Below, one piece after another: positions 38,632-63,834 of a stretch of DNA of 64,000 bases. Numbering within the stretch: the stretch's first letter is position 1; the number at the start of each line of letters is the position of its first letter. The position numbers were made by a program, and so were the translations under genes. The stretch comes from an uncultured Blautia sp. (GTDB lineage Bacteria > Bacillota > Clostridia > Lachnospirales > Lachnospiraceae), in assembly GCA_934364795.1 (NCBI GenBank), contig CAKRMK010000008.1, positions 34,343 through 98,342 on the forward strand, in the 5' to 3' direction. The notes under the pieces are model-generated. The model saw nothing but the letters and a program-made list of their open reading frames with translations, had not been told where the DNA came from and did no database searches.

Positions 38632-38660
38632 TTGACTTCTAAAAACTTTGGTAGTAAAAT
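38632..38660 (+). promoter_or_regulatory. Promoter of the T-box leader
   Basis: TTGACT (38632-38637), 17-base spacer, TAAAAT (38655-38660). No clear terminator separates it from the ABC exporter genes, so some read-through into the leader is possible. Confidence 0.7.
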
Positions 38661-38703
38661 TACTTTAGTTCGTTAAACAACTAAATTTAAAAAGGATTAA
38701 ATT

Positions 38704-38980
38704 CCTTGAAGGGAAGCAGTAGGAACAGGAAACCGGTCTACAGAGAGCTGTGTTGGTGGAAGGCAGTGTCAGGTCTGTTTTGAAGATCATCCCCGAGAAG
38801 GGAAGCCGAACGTATGAGAATCACTCAGGTACCTTATAGTGACAAGTAGGTTTCCACGGCTGTTCTCCGTTATCAGAACCACGTATGTCGGTACGTTGTC
38901 TTTTCGTACTTGTTTCAAAGGAGAAACAGGGTGGTTGCGGCTTTATATGTCCGTCCCTAGTTTGGGGACGGACTTTTTTT
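38704..38980 (+). promoter_or_regulatory. T-box leader (tRNA-sensing), probably Ile-specific
   Basis: Stem I hallmarks are present: AGTAG (38718), CAGAGAGCTG (38741) and TTGGTGGAAGGCAG (38753). The specifier segment TTTTGAAGATCATCCCC (38778-38794) offers ATC (Ile, 38786-38788), or less likely GAT (Asp). The T-box antiterminator AGGG-TGGT-TGCGG (38928-38940) pairs with CCGTCCCT. The bulge TGGT calls for discriminator base A, which fits tRNA-Ile but not the usual G73 of tRNA-Asp. The leader ends in a terminator and precedes a TRAP transporter. Class is firm; the specifier is inference. Confidence 0.85.
38949..38980 (+). terminator. T-box terminator
   Basis: GTCCGTCCC pairs perfectly with GGGACGGAC, followed by seven T. 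Its left arm includes the CCGTCCCT needed by the antiterminator, so the two structures exclude each other. Confidence 0.9.
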
Positions 38981-38981
38981 G

Positions 38982-39196
38982 CGATGAAAGTCCCGGACAG
39001 CAGCCGTGTATGAGCCATGCTTGCATGAGCGAATACACGGATATTGGACGGGCTAGGCGACATGAGTAAGTAGGGCGAGACGCCCGGATTACGAATGCCG
39101 CCGGCAACTGTGGGAGCGCCGCAGGCGCGGAACAGTTGACTTTCATCTATAAAAATGTCTGCGTAAGCAGACATTTCCATGTCCCGGACAGCAGCC
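38982..39196. repeat. GC-rich palindromic segment between 16-bp direct repeats
   Basis: GTCCCGGACAGCAGCC occurs at 38990-39005 and again at 39181-39196, exactly 191 bases apart. The segment between them is GC-rich compared with its surroundings and full of hairpins: CAACTGT...ACAGTTG enclosing GCGCC/GGCGC (39105-39138), and AAATGTCTGC-GTAA-GCAGACATTT (39153-39176). GATGAAAGTC (38982) and GACTTTCATC (39138) are also inverted copies. No ORF or promoter is evident. It may be an inserted element or a structured leader section. Confidence 0.6.
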
Positions 39197-39244: not shown

Positions 39245-39742
39245 ATGAAAGTCTTCAAAAAAATCATGAATGCAGTAGCAGCAGTGGAAAATTGTATTCT
39301 TGTTGTATCCACCCTGCTGATACTGGTCCTGACTGTGGGAAATGTTTTTTCCCGTAAAGTCATCCATCGTTCCTGGTCCTTTACCGAGGAACTTGTAGTT
39401 GCAGTTTTTGTTCTGATCACATTAATGGCTGCAGCACTTGCATGTCGGGAAGGAGAACTGGTCAACCTGTCACTGGTTACAGACCGTCTTCCTGAAAAGC
39501 TGAAAAAACCATCTGTTATCCTGTCCACTGTTTTATGTATTATTTTTACCGCTATCTTATTCTGGTTTGGTATGGAAAAAGTAATCACACAGCTGGAAAA
39601 TGGAAAACGTACCTTCGTACTGAACTGGCCTGAATGGATTTTCTGGTCCTTTGTTCCGATTGGTTCCGGATGTATGATTTTACATTTTATTGAATTTTGC
39701 ATTGATTTTTGTACAGACAAGATAAAGAAGGAGGATAAATAA
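39245..39742 (+). CDS. dctQ: TRAP transporter small permease (DctQ)
   Basis: A 165-residue membrane protein with four helices, the DctQ subunit of a tripartite ATP-independent periplasmic-type (TRAP) transporter. Typical residues are NVFSRKVIHRSWSFTEELVV and the GM.KV...LENGKR region before the third and fourth helices. I chose the ATG at 39245 with GGAGGAG upstream; a longer frame to 39179 runs into the palindromic segment. The stop codon abuts the ATG of the next gene, which encodes the large permease. TRAP systems take up carboxylates with Na+. Confidence 0.9.
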   Translation: MKVFKKIMNAVAAVENCILVVSTLLILVLTVGNVFSRKVIHRSWSFTEELVVAVFVLITLMAAALACREGELVNLSLVTDRLPEKLKKPSVILSTVLCIIFTAILFWFGMEKVITQLENGKRTFVLNWPEWIFWSFVPIGSGCMILHFIEFCIDFCTDKIKKEDK

Positions 39743-42700
39743 ATGATAAGTGCAGTTCTTTTTATTTCATTTTTTGTTTTCCTGATCATGGGCGTTCCCA
39801 TTGCAATCTGTCTGGGACTGTCATCCGTATGTGCAATTTTGTACTCCGGAACATCTCTTACCATTGTGGCAACCAACATGTATGCCGGAATCAGTAAATT
39901 CCTTCTTCTGGCAATTCCATTTTTCGTGCTTTCCGGAAATATTATGGCAAAAGCCGGAATTTCCAAAAGACTTGTTAAATTCGTAGATACCTGTGTGGGA
40001 CACAGAAGAGGCGGAATTGCCATTGTATGTGTTATTGTTGCATGCTTCTTTGGCGCAATTTCCGGTTCCGGTCCGGCTACTGTAGCTGCGCTTGGTGCAG
40101 TTCTGATTCCTGCCATGGTAGAAAGAGGAGGCTTTAGTGCTCCGTTTTCCACTGCACTGATGGCAACTTCAAGCTCCATAGCAATTGTCATCCCGCCAAG
40201 TATTGCATTTGTTGTATACGCTTCTATTACAGGCGTATCCATTGCAGATATGTTTATGGCAGGTATTGTGCCAGGTATCCTCATGGGCGTTGCCCTTGTA
40301 ATCGTAGTAATGGTAGAAGCCAGAAGAAAAGGCATTCAGCCGGCACAGAAAAAGGCTACTGCAAAAGAACGCTGGGATGCATTTAAGGATGCTTTCTGGG
40401 GATTTTTAATGCCAGTTATCATTCTTGGCGGTATTTACGGAGGAATCTTTACTCCTACCGAGGCGGCTGCAGTGTCTGTTGTATACGGTTTGTTTGTAGG
40501 TATGGTGATCTACCGTGAAGTTAAGTTAAAAGATCTGTTTGATATTTGCGTAGATTCAGCAAAAACAACTGGCGGAATCATGTTGATCGTAGCATGTGCA
40601 TCCCTGTTTTCCTATGTATGTACCAAATTTGGTATTGCAGATGCAGCTTCCCAGCTTCTTGGAAGCATTGCACATAACCAGTTTACCTTCCTTCTGATTG
40701 TAAACGTGATTTTCCTGATTGCAGGCTGCTTTATTGATGCAAACTCTGCAATGTATATTTTCATTCCGGTAATGCTTCCGGTATGCAAAGCCCTTGGCTA
40801 TGACGTAGTTGCTTTTGGTGTTATGGCAACTGTAAACCTTGCAATCGGCCAGGTAACTCCTCCGGTTGGTGTCAACCTGTTTGTTGCAATTGGAATTAAG
40901 ATTAAAAAAGGAATGGAAGTTACTCTTCAGGAGATTTCCAAAGCGGTTATGCCTATGCTGGCAGCTTGTATTGCAGTTCTTCTGATTGTTACATACATTC
41001 CGGTTACTTCTACAGCTCTTCCAAAAGCACTTGCCAAAAATGGTGCTTATTCCGGTGATTCTGCAGCAGGTGAAAGCGGTTCTTCTGCAGCTTCTGCAGC
41101 AGGCGATGAGGAACATTCTTTCAACGAGATCGGTGATTACAGTGATCTTGGCTGGGAAGAGACAACCTGGAATTTTGCATGCTCTACAACAGAAACTTCT
41201 ACCTGGGCAGAAGGCGGACGTAAGTTCGGAGAGCTGATGGAAAAAGCCACAGGCGGAAAAGTAAAAGTAAACGTATATGCAGCAGATCAGCTGACAAATG
41301 GAAACCAGTCCGAGGGAATCCAGGCACTGATGAACGGAGATCCGGTACAGATTTCCATGCATTCTAACCTGATCTATTCTGCATTTGATCCAAGATTTAA
41401 CGTAGTATCCCTGCCGTTTATTTATGATTCTGTAGAAGATGCAGATGCCAAATTTGACGGCGAGGCAGGAGAGAAATTAAAAGAAATTTTAAGTGAATAT
41501 GGACTTCACTGTATGGGAATTGCAGAGAATGGTTTCCGCGAGCTGACCAACAGTGTCCGTGAGGTAAAATCTGTAGATGACATGAAGAATCTGAAGATCC
41601 GTGTTGCAGGTTCTAACCTTCTTATGGAATGTTATAAGAGATGGGGGGCAGATGCCACCAACATGAACTGGTCAGAAACCTACACTGCACTTCAGCAGAA
41701 CACTGTCGAGGGACAGGAAAATCCGCTGCCTGCAATTGATGCTGCCAGTGTACAGGAGGTTCAGCCGTACTGCTCCATGTGGGATGCTATTTATGACTGT
41801 CTGTTCTTCTGTATTAACCAGGAAATTTATGACGGACTTACAGAAGAGCAGCAGGCAGTTGTTGATGAAGCAGGACAAAAAGCAGTAGAGTACGAGCGTT
41901 ACATCAACCGTTCCGGTGACGAAGAGATTATGAACCGCTGGGAAGAGAAAAACGGTGTAACCTTTACTGCAAAAGAAGATATGGATATTGATTCTTTCAA
42001 AGAAGCTGTTGAGGGTGTAGACGAGTGGTTTATTGAAGAACTGAAATCCCAGGGCTATGATGACGCAGAAGAGCTGGTTGAGGCATTTACCGGAATCGGG
42101 GATTACAGCGACCTTGGCTGGGAAGAAACTACCTGGAACTTTGCATGCTCCACAACAGAGACATCTACCTGGGCAGAAGGCGGACGCAAGTTCGGAGAGC
42201 TGATGGAAAAAGCCACAGGTGGAAAAGTAAAGGTAAACGTATATGCAGCAGATCAGCTGACAAACGGAAACCAGTCTGAGGGAATCCAGGCGCTGATGAA
42301 CGGAGATCCGGTACAGATTTCTATGCATTCCAACCTGATCTATTCTGCATTTGACCCAAGATTTAACGTAGTATCCCTGCCGTTTATCTATGACTCTGTG
42401 GAAGATGCAGACGCCAAGTTTGACGGCGAGGCAGGCGATAAGATGAAAGAAATCTTAAGTGAGTACGGACTTCACTGCATGGGAATTGCGGAGAACGGTT
42501 TCCGTGAGCTGACTAACAGTGTTCATGAAGTGAAAACTGTAGACGACATGAAGAATCTGAAAATCCGTGTTGCAGGCTCCAATCTTCTCATGGAATGTTA
42601 TAAGAGATGGGGCGCAGATGCCACCAATATGAACTGGTCAGAAACCTACACTGCACTTCAGCAGAACACTGTCGAGGGACAGGAAAATCCGCTGCCTGCA

Positions 42701-43060
42701 ATTGATGCTGCCAGCGTACAGGAAGTTCAGCCATATTGCTCCATGTGGGATGCTATTTATGACTGCCTGTTCTTCTGTATCAATCAGGATATATATGATG
42801 CCCTGACTCCAGAGCAGCAGGCCGTTGTAGACAAAGCCGGAAGAATGGCAGTAGAGTATGAGCGTTACATCAACCGTTCCAGTGATACAGAAATCATGAA
42901 CCGCTGGGAAGAGAAAAACGGCGTAACCTTTACTGCAAAAGAGGATATGGATATTGATTCTTTCAAAGAAGCGGTAGACGGTGTTGATGAGTGGTTTGTA
43001 GAAGAACTGAAAAACCAGGGCTATGATGATGGCCAGGAACTGGTAGATGCATTTAAGTAA
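39743..43060 (+). CDS. TRAP large permease fused to two tandem substrate-binding domains (DctM-DctP-DctP)
   Basis: An 1105-residue fusion. Residues 1-424 are a full DctM permease (GVPIAICLGLSS, FFGAISGSGPATVAALGA, FTPTEAAAVSVVYG, IGQVTPPVGVNLF). Residues 425-462 are a Ser/Ala/Gly-rich flexible linker. Residues 463-784 and 785-1105 are two DctP-type binding domains of 322 and 321 residues; I count about 19 differences between them. Both keep the ligand-anchoring Arg in LKIRVAG (Arg620, Arg942) and the Asn of GQENP (Asn660, Asn982). Neither has a signal peptide or lipobox, so the permease itself must place them outside. Normally DctP is a separate protein. Preceded by AAGGAGG; a terminator follows. 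Confidence 0.92.
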   Translation: MISAVLFISFFVFLIMGVPIAICLGLSSVCAILYSGTSLTIVATNMYAGISKFLLLAIPFFVLSGNIMAKAGISKRLVKFVDTCVGHRRGGIAIVCVIVACFFGAISGSGPATVAALGAVLIPAMVERGGFSAPFSTALMATSSSIAIVIPPSIAFVVYASITGVSIADMFMAGIVPGILMGVALVIVVMVEARRKGIQPAQKKATAKERWDAFKDAFWGFLMPVIILGGIYGGIFTPTEAAAVSVVYGLFVGMVIYREVKLKDLFDICVDSAKTTGGIMLIVACASLFSYVCTKFGIADAASQLLGSIAHNQFTFLLIVNVIFLIAGCFIDANSAMYIFIPVMLPVCKALGYDVVAFGVMATVNLAIGQVTPPVGVNLFVAIGIKIKKGMEVTLQEISKAVMPMLAACIAVLLIVTYIPVTSTALPKALAKNGAYSGDSAAGESGSSAASAAGDEEHSFNEIGDYSDLGWEETTWNFACSTTETSTWAEGGRKFGELMEKATGGKVKVNVYAADQLTNGNQSEGIQALMNGDPVQISMHSNLIYSAFDPRFNVVSLPFIYDSVEDADAKFDGEAGEKLKEILSEYGLHCMGIAENGFRELTNSVREVKSVDDMKNLKIRVAGSNLLMECYKRWGADATNMNWSETYTALQQNTVEGQENPLPAIDAASVQEVQPYCSMWDAIYDCLFFCINQEIYDGLTEEQQAVVDEAGQKAVEYERYINRSGDEEIMNRWEEKNGVTFTAKEDMDIDSFKEAVEGVDEWFIEELKSQGYDDAEELVEAFTGIGDYSDLGWEETTWNFACSTTETSTWAEGGRKFGELMEKATGGKVKVNVYAADQLTNGNQSEGIQALMNGDPVQISMHSNLIYSAFDPRFNVVSLPFIYDSVEDADAKFDGEAGDKMKEILSEYGLHCMGIAENGFRELTNSVHEVKTVDDMKNLKIRVAGSNLLMECYKRWGADATNMNWSETYTALQQNTVEGQENPLPAIDAASVQEVQPYCSMWDAIYDCLFFCINQDIYDALTPEQQAVVDKAGRMAVEYERYINRSSDTEIMNRWEEKNGVTFTAKEDMDIDSFKEAVDGVDEWFVEELKNQGYDDGQELVDAFK
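41129..43057 (+). repeat. 966-bp tandem duplication encoding the two binding domains
   Basis: Unit 1 is 41129-42094 and unit 2 is 42095-43057. The first 114 residues of the two domains are identical in protein but differ at many silent positions, while other stretches (around 41660-41750 and 42620-42710) are almost identical in DNA. This mix of silent divergence and near-identity suggests an older duplication kept similar by selection and local gene conversion. Confidence 0.9.
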
Positions 43061-43105: not shown

Positions 43106-43150
43106 AAGGCTGCCGGTTGATAGAGAGACTGTTACCGGCAGCTTTCTTTT
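43106..43150 (+). terminator. Terminator of the TRAP operon
   Basis: AAGGCTGCCGGT pairs with ACCGGCAGCTTT around a 16-base loop, then CTTTT. It also reaches the end of the convergent LysE gene and can serve both. Confidence 0.85.
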
Positions 43151-43746
43151 CAGCTTAATATTCCCATAATTTTTAAGGAACACCACACCAGCAAAAGAGC
43201 CATAAACCAGTTCATCAGTTTATAATGATTGCTATAAAATCTTTTCAGCCCGTTACCTGCAAAAGCCCAGATCAGATTCCCCAGAGAACCCAGAAACATA
43301 AGATATACGGCAAAACAAAAGAGTAGGGGAATTCTGTTTTCATAAGGCAGAATAAAAGCAGAAAACATGGTTAAACCATATATAATGATTTTTACATTAA
43401 TCAACTGAAGAAAAAATCCCATAAGCCAGGTTGGCTTTTTTTCCTGTACACTGGCGGAAGGTGGCTGTCGTTTTAAGGTCTGCCAGGCAAGATATAAAAT
43501 ATAAGCAGCTCCCAGATATTTCATTACAGGCTGGATCCCTGGAATTATTTTTCCAAGTGTGCTGCAGAAAATGCCGGAAAGACACATCAAAGTAAGAGAA
43601 CCGCTCCAGATTCCTGCCATAAACCGAAGATTACCCCGGACACCGTATTTGCTGGCTGTAGACAAAAGAAGAATATTATTTGGTCCCGGGGACCAGACTG
43701 TGAGAATGGCAGATAAGGTCATTTCTATAAAAACAGATAAAGGCAT
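43150..43746 (-). CDS. LysE/RhtB-family amino acid exporter
   Basis: A 198-residue membrane protein with about six helices. The N-terminal VWSPGPNNILLLSTASKYGVRGNLRFMAGIWSG is the LysE/RhtB signature (PGPN), and LAWQTLKR and LINVKIIIYGLTMFSAFILP follow. Family members export basic or neutral amino acids or homoserine lactones. The substrate is not predictable. It is convergent with the TRAP operon, whose leader senses an amino-acid tRNA; whether the two are linked functionally is open. GGAGG lies six bases before the ATG. Confidence 0.88.
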   Translation of the reverse strand: MPLSVFIEMTLSAILTVWSPGPNNILLLSTASKYGVRGNLRFMAGIWSGSLTLMCLSGIFCSTLGKIIPGIQPVMKYLGAAYILYLAWQTLKRQPPSASVQEKKPTWLMGFFLQLINVKIIIYGLTMFSAFILPYENRIPLLFCFAVYLMFLGSLGNLIWAFAGNGLKRFYSNHYKLMNWFMALLLVWCSLKIMGILS

Positions 43747-63477: not shown

Positions 63478-63824
63478 GGGCTTGTACTGGTTTCGACGGG
63501 GGTTTTGAAGTTGTGGAAGCCATCCGCAGCCTCCCGAACTGCGTAATAACGGGAAATTCTAAATATAAACGCTGACGATCAGTTAGTAATGGCAGCCTAA
63601 GTGCTGCCCGTCAGTCCTGTTGCACTCACACTTCAGGAGTCTGGCGTCGACCTTGTGAGAAACCTTGCCGGGTAAGCTTTGCCCCGGTAGATGTATCATG
63701 AAGCTACTGAAGCAGTAAGCCTGTCGGTGGGCGTGCTGCGGAGGGAATGTTAATACAGCGACTGTGATGGGAGATGCCGCAAGGGATAGACTTTCGGACG
63801 CGGGTTCAATTCCCGCCAGGTCCA
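63478..63824 (+). ncRNA. ssrA: tmRNA
   Basis: Transfer-messenger RNA of about 347 bases. The 5' acceptor strand GGGCTTG pairs with CAGGTCC at the 3' end, and the T-arm is GCGGGTTCAATTCCCGC. The tag frame ends at TAA 63598-63600 and encodes NADDQLVMAA (63568-63597), preceded by the Ala carried by tmRNA itself; an in-frame TAA at 63562 limits the start. Pseudoknots are suggested by CCTTGCCGGGTAAGC/GCCCCGG and later G-rich pairs. The 3' CCA is not encoded (ACTA follows), so it must be added. Confidence 0.95.
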
Positions 63825-63834
63825 CTAAAATGAA

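Follow-up and report, generated by a model that had tools for sequence, protein, structure and literature searches.

A DctM permease with two tandem DctP domains behind a predicted isoleucine T-box leader in an uncultured Blautia species

A gene in the window (the whole stretch of 64,000 nucleotides from an uncultured Blautia sp. that was analysed) encodes a DctM permease that continues through a linker into two DctP binding domains, and its operon is headed by a T-box leader with an apparent isoleucine specifier. The product probably works as a TRAP importer that takes up isoleucine or an isoleucine-pathway acid and bears several alike receptors, tethered in an array on the outside. The single M-P fusion is already known; the tandem receptor array on DctM is apparently undescribed, no description of tandem DctP on DctM having been found, among the matches listed, in the available text of the literature.

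The frame at 39743-43060 is open from end to end, with zero internal stops, and encodes 1105 amino acids, as the earlier note had read it. We confirmed that DctM, a linker and two DctP domains are joined in this one chain, which follows dctQ:

39245..39742, + strand: dctQ, small TRAP permease subunit, 165 aa (PF04290, E 4.1e-33 to 5.9e-33, on 39251-39739)
39743..41017, + strand: DctM permease domain, residues 1-425 (PF06808, E 1.5e-112; TIGR00786, E 3.1e-128, above cut-off)
41018..41128, + strand: flexible linker rich in Ser/Ala/Gly, about 37 residues (from the sequence)
41129..42094, + strand: DctP binding domain, unit 1, residues 463-784 (Pfam DctP)
42095..43057, + strand: DctP binding domain, unit 2, residues 785-1105 (94% identical to unit 1)

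Pfam places DctM at residues 7-420 and finds two DctP stretches (E 1.1e-136, whole protein), NCBIfam is concordant, and fold comparison found the TRAP receptor fold for the DctP unit. The linker had been given 38 residues in the earlier note; within it, residues 432-435 and 440-457 have a pLDDT below 50 in the predicted full-length model, which is weak as a whole (pTM 0.47, too low for docking). Judged by eye, the likely start of dctQ is the ATG at 39245 with its preceding AGGAGG, not the mechanical frame start at 39179, and a dctQ homologue lies directly upstream of the fused gene in 30 of 30 loci. Because the same fused architecture recurs in other genomes, the fusion is not a chance event.

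Relatives carry from one to four binding domains on DctM, and the two units of the window are not a fixed number. Among 41 loci, two intact units occur in 22, three in one and four in one; four is the highest number among the matches listed (best 120 per search), the protein search having been confined to lengths of at most 1.75 times that of the query (about 1934 and 3047 aa). Loci found again in the second search (L056, L057, L058, L060, L062, L063, L072, L074 and L075) were counted once, and the fragments L025, L030, L045 and L054 were excluded. A DctM tree was built from 49 family members; it omits L029 (a fragment) and L014 (frameshifted), both among the 41 loci, and L072 stands in it for L024. 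At least 17 changes in unit number or fusion state fall on this tree, on which some low unit counts could be collapsed assemblies, and single-unit proteins nest among multi-unit ones. A further tree of 95 units represents a chosen subset (the window and 35 loci, 10 database proteins and 2 free receptors), and the nearest unit lies in the same protein for 27 of 80 units. As judged from these phylogenies, receptor number changes often in evolution.

One possible hypothesis holds that near-identical repeats recombine and leave extra units behind as a neutral side effect, a single unit being enough and more bringing no gain in uptake. The frequent changes of unit number, the nesting of single-unit proteins and the 27 units closest to another unit of their own protein are all in keeping with it. 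The units themselves speak against it. The two in the window differ at 102 of 963 aligned bases (89.4% identical), mostly synonymously (72 synonymous against 19 non-synonymous codon differences), and tandem proteins are common. Moreover, the ligand-binding Arg and Asn reported earlier are present in both window units, and seven core contacts (R146, R167, N207, W190, H87, N89 and N143, numbered after a 331-residue model, the pocket being assessed from sequence) are the same in all 80 units compared from 33 multi-domain proteins, and likewise in all 15 single or free receptors. On balance we regard neutral extra units as a serious possibility that falls somewhat short of probable. That two copies raise the capture rate, as had been suggested, is a plausible, putative effect. 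Because 11 of 51 listed candidate positions around the pocket vary among units, the units may also differ in affinity. Broadened specificity of the kind known from GlnPQ was considered as well and is weakened, if not rejected, by the likeness of the core contacts between units, although these 11 positions vary.

The isoleucine T-box leader upstream of dctQ, which is absent from the earlier note, lies among the following elements:

38632..38660, + strand: promoter-like site TTGACT-17-TAAAAT (pattern match only)
38697..38961, + strand: T-box leader (RF00230; cmscan 93.5 bits, gathering score 93)
38786..38788, + strand: T-box specifier codon AUC (isoleucine), register from the Rfam alignment
38949..38980, + strand: intrinsic terminator overlapping the antiterminator 3' side (11-pair stem plus T run)
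38985..39145, + strand: Clostridiales-1 RNA (RF01699), between leader and dctQ (cmscan 111 bits)

The window T-box barely exceeds the Rfam cut-off, and five relatives score 95.2 to 106.9 bits. The stretch 38925-38980 folds at z -3.4, the GGGTGG antiterminator side is present in T-box leaders, and the promoter-like pattern was found once against a shuffle mean of 0.9. Altogether, T-box leaders were found in 27 of the 41 distinct loci, window included. The other 14 show none by pattern, and 11 of these also yielded none in an Rfam scan, which omitted L021, L027 and L073; L008 has the pattern and does not reach the Rfam cut-off. The longer loci L076-L082 show no T-box at the Rfam cut-off, a negative to be read at that threshold because the T-boxes of L067, L070 and L071 score under it. 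The Clostridiales-1 RNA we place outside the core system, because it is missing from the aligned leader of L015 and unreported in the six relatives' loci scanned.

The specifier is AUC in 27 of 27 aligned T-box leaders, window included, six bases before GAG, while the base preceding it takes all four letters; leaders with AUC occur in two separate groups of the family. The register was controlled on 19 T-box matches in two relatives' genomes, of which eight were read (L089, L090, L091, L092, L094, L095, L097 and L098); the 11 left out include leuA and trpE leaders. L092 and L095 are TRAP leaders, and L097 (ACC) has no listed downstream frame. By eye, the codons read upstream of thrS, proS and pheS are ACC, CCG and TTC, all at the same six-base distance from GAG as AUC here. 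It is the GAG side that carries the control, because the CCG of L091, counted from GAG, would shift by one base if counted from the GAA motif. The predicted action of the leader is that uncharged tRNA-Ile would raise transcription of the dctQ operon.

We suggest the following mechanism. The receptor would be a covalent, surface-exposed array on the C-terminus of DctM in a DctP-type TRAP importer. When tRNA-Ile is uncharged, the leader would antiterminate and the importer would be made, in the window and behind the 26 further leaders. The small carboxylate, the same for all units, might then be bound by any unit of the array, which would close and then dock at the face of DctQ/DctM, passing its ligand on to the elevator; the others would serve as a tethered reserve. 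Cargo, T-box action, docking unit by unit and the benefit of several units are the parts of this scheme that we infer. Candidate cargoes are isoleucine, 2-oxobutyrate, 3-methyl-2-oxopentanoate, acetohydroxybutyrate, dihydroxy-methylpentanoate or 2-methylbutyrate, an isoleucine-related cargo being suggested because the specifier is AUC in every T-box leader aligned. We take PDB entry 4p8b to hold 2-acetolactate, and 4nq8 and 4pak presumably hold pantoate. TRAP ligands listed in the available text of PMC5812351 include 2-acetolactate and pantoate, and the alpha-keto-acid TRAP receptor TakP is discussed, in the part of PMC1839085 at hand, as a supplier of intermediates of valine/isoleucine synthesis. 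Taken as a whole, a tethered-array DctQ/DctM importer under isoleucine T-box control with an isoleucine-related cargo is the explanation that we favour, with somewhat better than even confidence.

Alternatively, the same tethered TRAP importer might carry a cargo unrelated to isoleucine, such as a sugar acid or a short hydroxy acid (erythronate, threonate, pantoate), the T-box then being a general response to amino-acid starvation or having been acquired without a match to the cargo. The T-box is missing in 14 of 41 loci, and DctPAm, which is described as binding sugar acids, ranks with the best matches in both sequence and fold. The available text of PMC11668362 reports pantoate or erythronate in several of the structures nearest to a related receptor, OaIseP. 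In Treponema, the L027 operon faces D-threonate kinase-like and PdxA-type dehydrogenase-like genes, which would point to four-carbon sugar acids. However, L027 is a distant member (65%), its kinase stays below the NCBIfam threshold, and a GntP-type permease of their own is found among its tetronate-like genes. The constancy of AUC in two family groups, next to a base that varies freely, also argues against an unrelated cargo, which we consider unlikely, though worth keeping in view.

As to topology, the earlier note had placed the binding domains at the permease outside the cell, and homology with unfused, secreted receptors supports this. In L024 (= L072), a stop follows DctM, and an AGGAGG site precedes a separate DctP whose leader is of lipoprotein type and ends in LTAC-GG; in L073, the separate DctP has a plain signal-peptide-like start (both by eye), and the beginning of its mature form is similar to the linkers found in the fused relatives L066-L071. 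On the DctM tree L073 adjoins a fused group with strong support, and L024 lies at the family base with weak support. Because the DctP proteins of these two unfused orthologues have signal-peptide-like starts, an external position is almost certain for the fused domains as well. The chain could in principle be cut at the linkers after export, freeing separate surface receptors, so that fusion would serve only joint export and expression. In the model the first linker comes out as disordered, and linkers differ in length and sequence among relatives, both of which would suit cleavage; freed domains would, though, be without a lipid anchor, in a cell that lacks an outer membrane, and we think such cutting very improbable. 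An assembly or frame artefact deserves next to no credence. In its favour, short reads can lose count of repeats this long (about 960 bases), the gene is split in two assemblies (L025 with L029; L030 with L045) and the L014 gene is frameshifted. Against it, the longest identical run between the window units is only 86 bases, and the tandem, which the earlier note had taken as real, has relatives with one to four domains, some of them in large contigs (L001, 3.3 Mb, two units; P0077, 3.8 Mb, three; P0093, 5.9 Mb, three).

The favoured tethered-array importer shares with the DctP-type TRAP transporters SiaPQM and DctPQM the DctQ, DctM and DctP modules, the receptor fold, the conserved Arg/Arg/Asn contacts and, probably, a sodium-driven elevator. 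Parts of the SGSGPATVAALG and TPPVG stretches of DctM are invariant in the family alignment, and the importer may be sodium-coupled. In SiaPQM and DctPQM the receptor is free or lipid-anchored, whereas here one to four copies of it form the C-terminal portion of DctM; a separate extracytoplasmic receptor is absent in the window (fused) and present in L024 and L073. The fused importer still counts as a TRAP transporter, because PMC9352664, in its available text, counts natural M-P fusions as such. That text also bears on the novelty suggested in the earlier note: it already describes single DctM-DctP fusions, modelled with the receptor outside, and cites as rare a natural single M-P fusion in Acidaminococcus intestini (G4Q5D7), so only the tandem array keeps its claim. 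By description G4Q5D7 likewise has DctM and then DctP in one chain; the tandem and the leader found here are not mentioned for it there.

The comparison with GlnPQ that had been drawn holds for the layout, two receptors in tandem tethered to a permease in Gram-positive bacteria (PMC8025302, available text), and is at most partial beyond it, the core contacts giving no hint of specialised domains and some nearby positions varying. GlnPQ is an ABC importer whose domains differ in specificity, as that text has it, whereas here the permease is DctM and the near-identical units have the same core contacts. The TAXI-GltS fusions of Lachnospiraceae (PMC12344293) come from the same bacterial family, join a receptor to an elevator-type carrier and carry the same tethering argument; they belong to other receptor and carrier families, with the receptor N-terminal and, in the part available, one receptor domain described. 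TakP is likewise a TRAP receptor discussed as feeding valine/isoleucine synthesis, but it is a separate dimeric Rhodobacter receptor, with no T-box mentioned in the text at hand (PMC1839085). Isoleucine T-boxes upstream of transporters are known from PMC2494555, where the classes named in the accessible portion are ABC, APC, DAACS, LIVCS, MFS, NHAC and NSS, with no DctP-type TRAP; among the matches listed, the available literature likewise yielded no description of a T-box-controlled DctP-type TRAP.

Tethered tandem receptors, known from ABC importers, are here seen in TRAP importers too, in Blautia and similar gut bacteria, and the T-box leader narrows the ligand list in a family of often unknown cargo. 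The carrier type is reported to take ligand solely from its receptor, which makes the effect of extra receptors of interest, and nature offers a ready series for studying their role, in which similar permeases bear one, two, three or four alike receptors. More tentatively, the isoleucine T-box and an adjustable string of alike receptors might together form the first amino-acid-regulon TRAP importer, in which recombination between repeats would change the receptor number quickly in evolution and this number, like a dial, would set the capacity for uptake in the gut; we hold this bolder version possible rather than probable.

Neighbour clustering of 30 loci revealed no isoleucine-pathway enzyme as a recurrent neighbour. 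We looked for, and rejected, a recurrent catabolic cluster from which the cargo might be read, since the other clusters in at least four loci are, by eye, shadow frames or genes common to at most six loci. The recurrent neighbour besides dctQ is a convergent gene:

43150..43746, - strand: LysE-type exporter gene (PF01810, E 1.5e-15)

A LysE-type homologue lies within 7 kb in 17 of the 30 loci. Neighbours seen in single cases are thrH at L065, a metY-like gene at L077 and the tetronate-like genes at L027.

The interval 39743-43060 of the window is a single open frame of 1105 residues without interruption, and Pfam and NCBIfam place in its product a complete N-terminal DctM and two C-terminal DctP domains ("units", at residues 463-784 and 785-1105), as the earlier note had read it: DctM, a linker and two DctP domains in one frame. 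DctM and the first unit are joined by a segment rich in Ser, Ala and Gly, most of which has a pLDDT below 50 in the structure model. The TAA stop of dctQ directly abuts the dctM start. The two units share 94% residue identity and 89.4% DNA identity and differ by 72 synonymous and 19 non-synonymous codons, an excess of synonymous change that would be expected under purifying selection.

That the tandem might be an assembly artefact, as the earlier note had considered, is not borne out, because tandem forms recur in relatives, including on contigs of 3.3, 3.8 and 5.9 Mb. Among 41 distinct loci (window included), 22 carry two units and 13 one fused unit; the others are a frameshifted two-unit gene (L014), a three-unit gene (L004), a four-unit gene (L009, 1804 aa), two loci with unfused DctP (L024 and L073) and a cut fragment (L029). 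In the family of the genome carrying locus L001, a match with an E-value no higher than 1e-150 was present in 18 of 397 sampled genomes; nine of these are tandem, seven are single fusions and two are unfused. The whole-chain protein search gave 3940 relatives out of 7987 scored candidates, with three-unit proteins the majority among the 120 matches listed. We collected 252 database proteins, a redundant set whose composition follows the queries used: one DctM is joined to three units in 127, to four in one and to two in one; 111 have one unit without a full DctM, three have three units and three have two units without a full DctM, and six have neither DctM nor unit by the thresholds applied. 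No signal peptide was seen by eye at the starts of 17 of the one-unit proteins, which look like partial pieces. It is possible that some low unit counts are repeats collapsed in short-read assemblies; for example, L026 has two units and database protein P0077 three, although their DctM parts are almost the same. Several database sequences of the family carry the name "DctP family TRAP transporter solute-binding subunit".

The sequences themselves are already public. In the papers covered by our literature search we found no description of tandem DctP on DctM, and the earlier note likewise knew of no described DctM-DctP-DctP protein; a single DctM-DctP fusion is already in print, as passages of PMC9352664 report. 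GlnPQ is a known case of receptors arranged in tandem within a single chain (in part of PMC8025302), and a receptor-carrier fusion was proposed to serve tethering in TAXI-GltS of Lachnospiraceae (in part of PMC12344293).

The DctM tree (64 rows) requires a minimum of 17 changes in unit count or fusion state across the 49 family members it includes. In a FastTree phylogeny of 95 units, close species retain unit position (window units 1 and 2 are nearest units 1 and 2, respectively, of the relative L015), and in other species the units of one protein group together, for example all four of P0035; the nearest leaf is a unit of the same protein for 27 of 80 units. The pattern fits duplication, loss and homogenisation that would have occurred repeatedly. 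Both units of L065 cluster together, adjoining the single-unit L027, which suggests that this doubling was a separate one. Unit 1 of P0034 groups with the window's close kin and its other two units with the L002/P0001 type; the protein is either a recombinant or a metagenome chimera.

In most outgroup loci the DctP gene lies upstream of DctM, and the order within the family is dctQ, dctM, DctP. In L024 the DctM stop is followed by an AGGAGG site and then by a DctP with a lipoprotein-type signal ending LTACGG (judged by eye), an arrangement that would show the step before fusion. The separate DctP of L073 starts with a plain signal-peptide-like sequence, and the linkers of the fused L066-L071 resemble its mature N-terminus (both by eye). 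On the DctM tree L073 is sister to L066-L071 (joint support 100/100) and L024 lies at the family base with weak support (89/69). A history with at least two fusions fits, and so does one with a single fusion that was later reversed twice; that signal peptides were newly gained twice seems less likely. Because these orthologous receptors look secreted, the fused DctP domains should lie outside the cell, which supports the outward-facing DctM C-terminus proposed previously. A published model of a natural DctM-DctP fusion likewise puts the receptor on the periplasmic side (in part of PMC9352664).

Upstream of dctQ lie the following elements:
38697-38961: T-box leader (Rfam match barely above cut-off)
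38949-38980: terminator at the downstream end of the leader
38985-39145, plus strand: Clostridiales-1 RNA, between the terminator and dctQ

In the close relative L015 the T-box runs straight into dctQ without the ~200-base stretch holding this RNA, as if the Clostridiales-1 RNA gene were an insertion in the window leader. A small perfect hairpin lies 3′ of the RNA (~39153-39176). Right ahead of dctQ, the short sequence TCCCGGACAGCAGCC (39182-39196) repeats the early part of that hairpin.

Rfam found a T-box in five of six further loci, L008 not being above cut-off. It also matched T-boxes in L067, L070 and L071 under the gathering score (E 4e-15 to 1e-12); accordingly, its scan of the longer loci L076-L082 listed none at cut-off. 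By pattern and alignment, 27 of the 41 loci have a T-box, and all 27 leaders, which are related and not independent events, carry an AUC specifier (isoleucine) with GAG six bases later; the preceding base occurs as all four letters. As register controls in two relatives, ACC before thrS, CCG before proS and TTC before pheS each lie six bases before GAG (by eye; 8 of 19 T-box matches were readable). The pattern gave no T-box in 14 loci, nor did Rfam in the 11 of these that were scanned with it, several of them covered only ~1.5 kb upstream of dctM. The literature search found no description of a T-box on a DctP-type TRAP system.

The isoleucine control predicted from the leader suggests that the cargo is either isoleucine itself or an isoleucine-pathway acid. 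In described TRAP receptors a conserved Arg holds the carboxylate and a ligand hydroxyl is often contacted (passages of PMC11668362), which may make a keto or hydroxy acid a slightly better candidate than the amino acid. TRAP carriers are reported, in part of PMC9971032, to take ligand solely from their own receptor; if so, a receptor array tethered to the permease would act as a fixed local ligand supply.

Three neighbourhoods bear on the cargo:
43150-43746, minus strand: LysE-type exporter gene, facing the operon
L065:4370-4969: ThrH (homoserine phosphotransferase / phosphoserine phosphatase), whose gene immediately precedes dctQ and the two-unit DctM
L027:4734-9236: Treponema one-unit relative, oriented divergently from genes of threonate-kinase-like, PdxA and GntP type and from a gene that by eye resembles DeoR

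A LysE-type homologue lies within 7 kb in 17 of 30 loci (15 copies on the opposite strand, 2 on the same), and also beside the unfused L024, where it is nearest a cysteine/O-acetylserine transporter model at a score below its cut-off. This recurrent neighbour and the thrH of L065, itself a hint of threonine-isoleucine metabolism, fit an amino-acid theme, whereas the tetronate-like cluster of L027 does not. A tmRNA gene (63478-63825, plus strand; tag ADDQLVMAA) also lies in the window.
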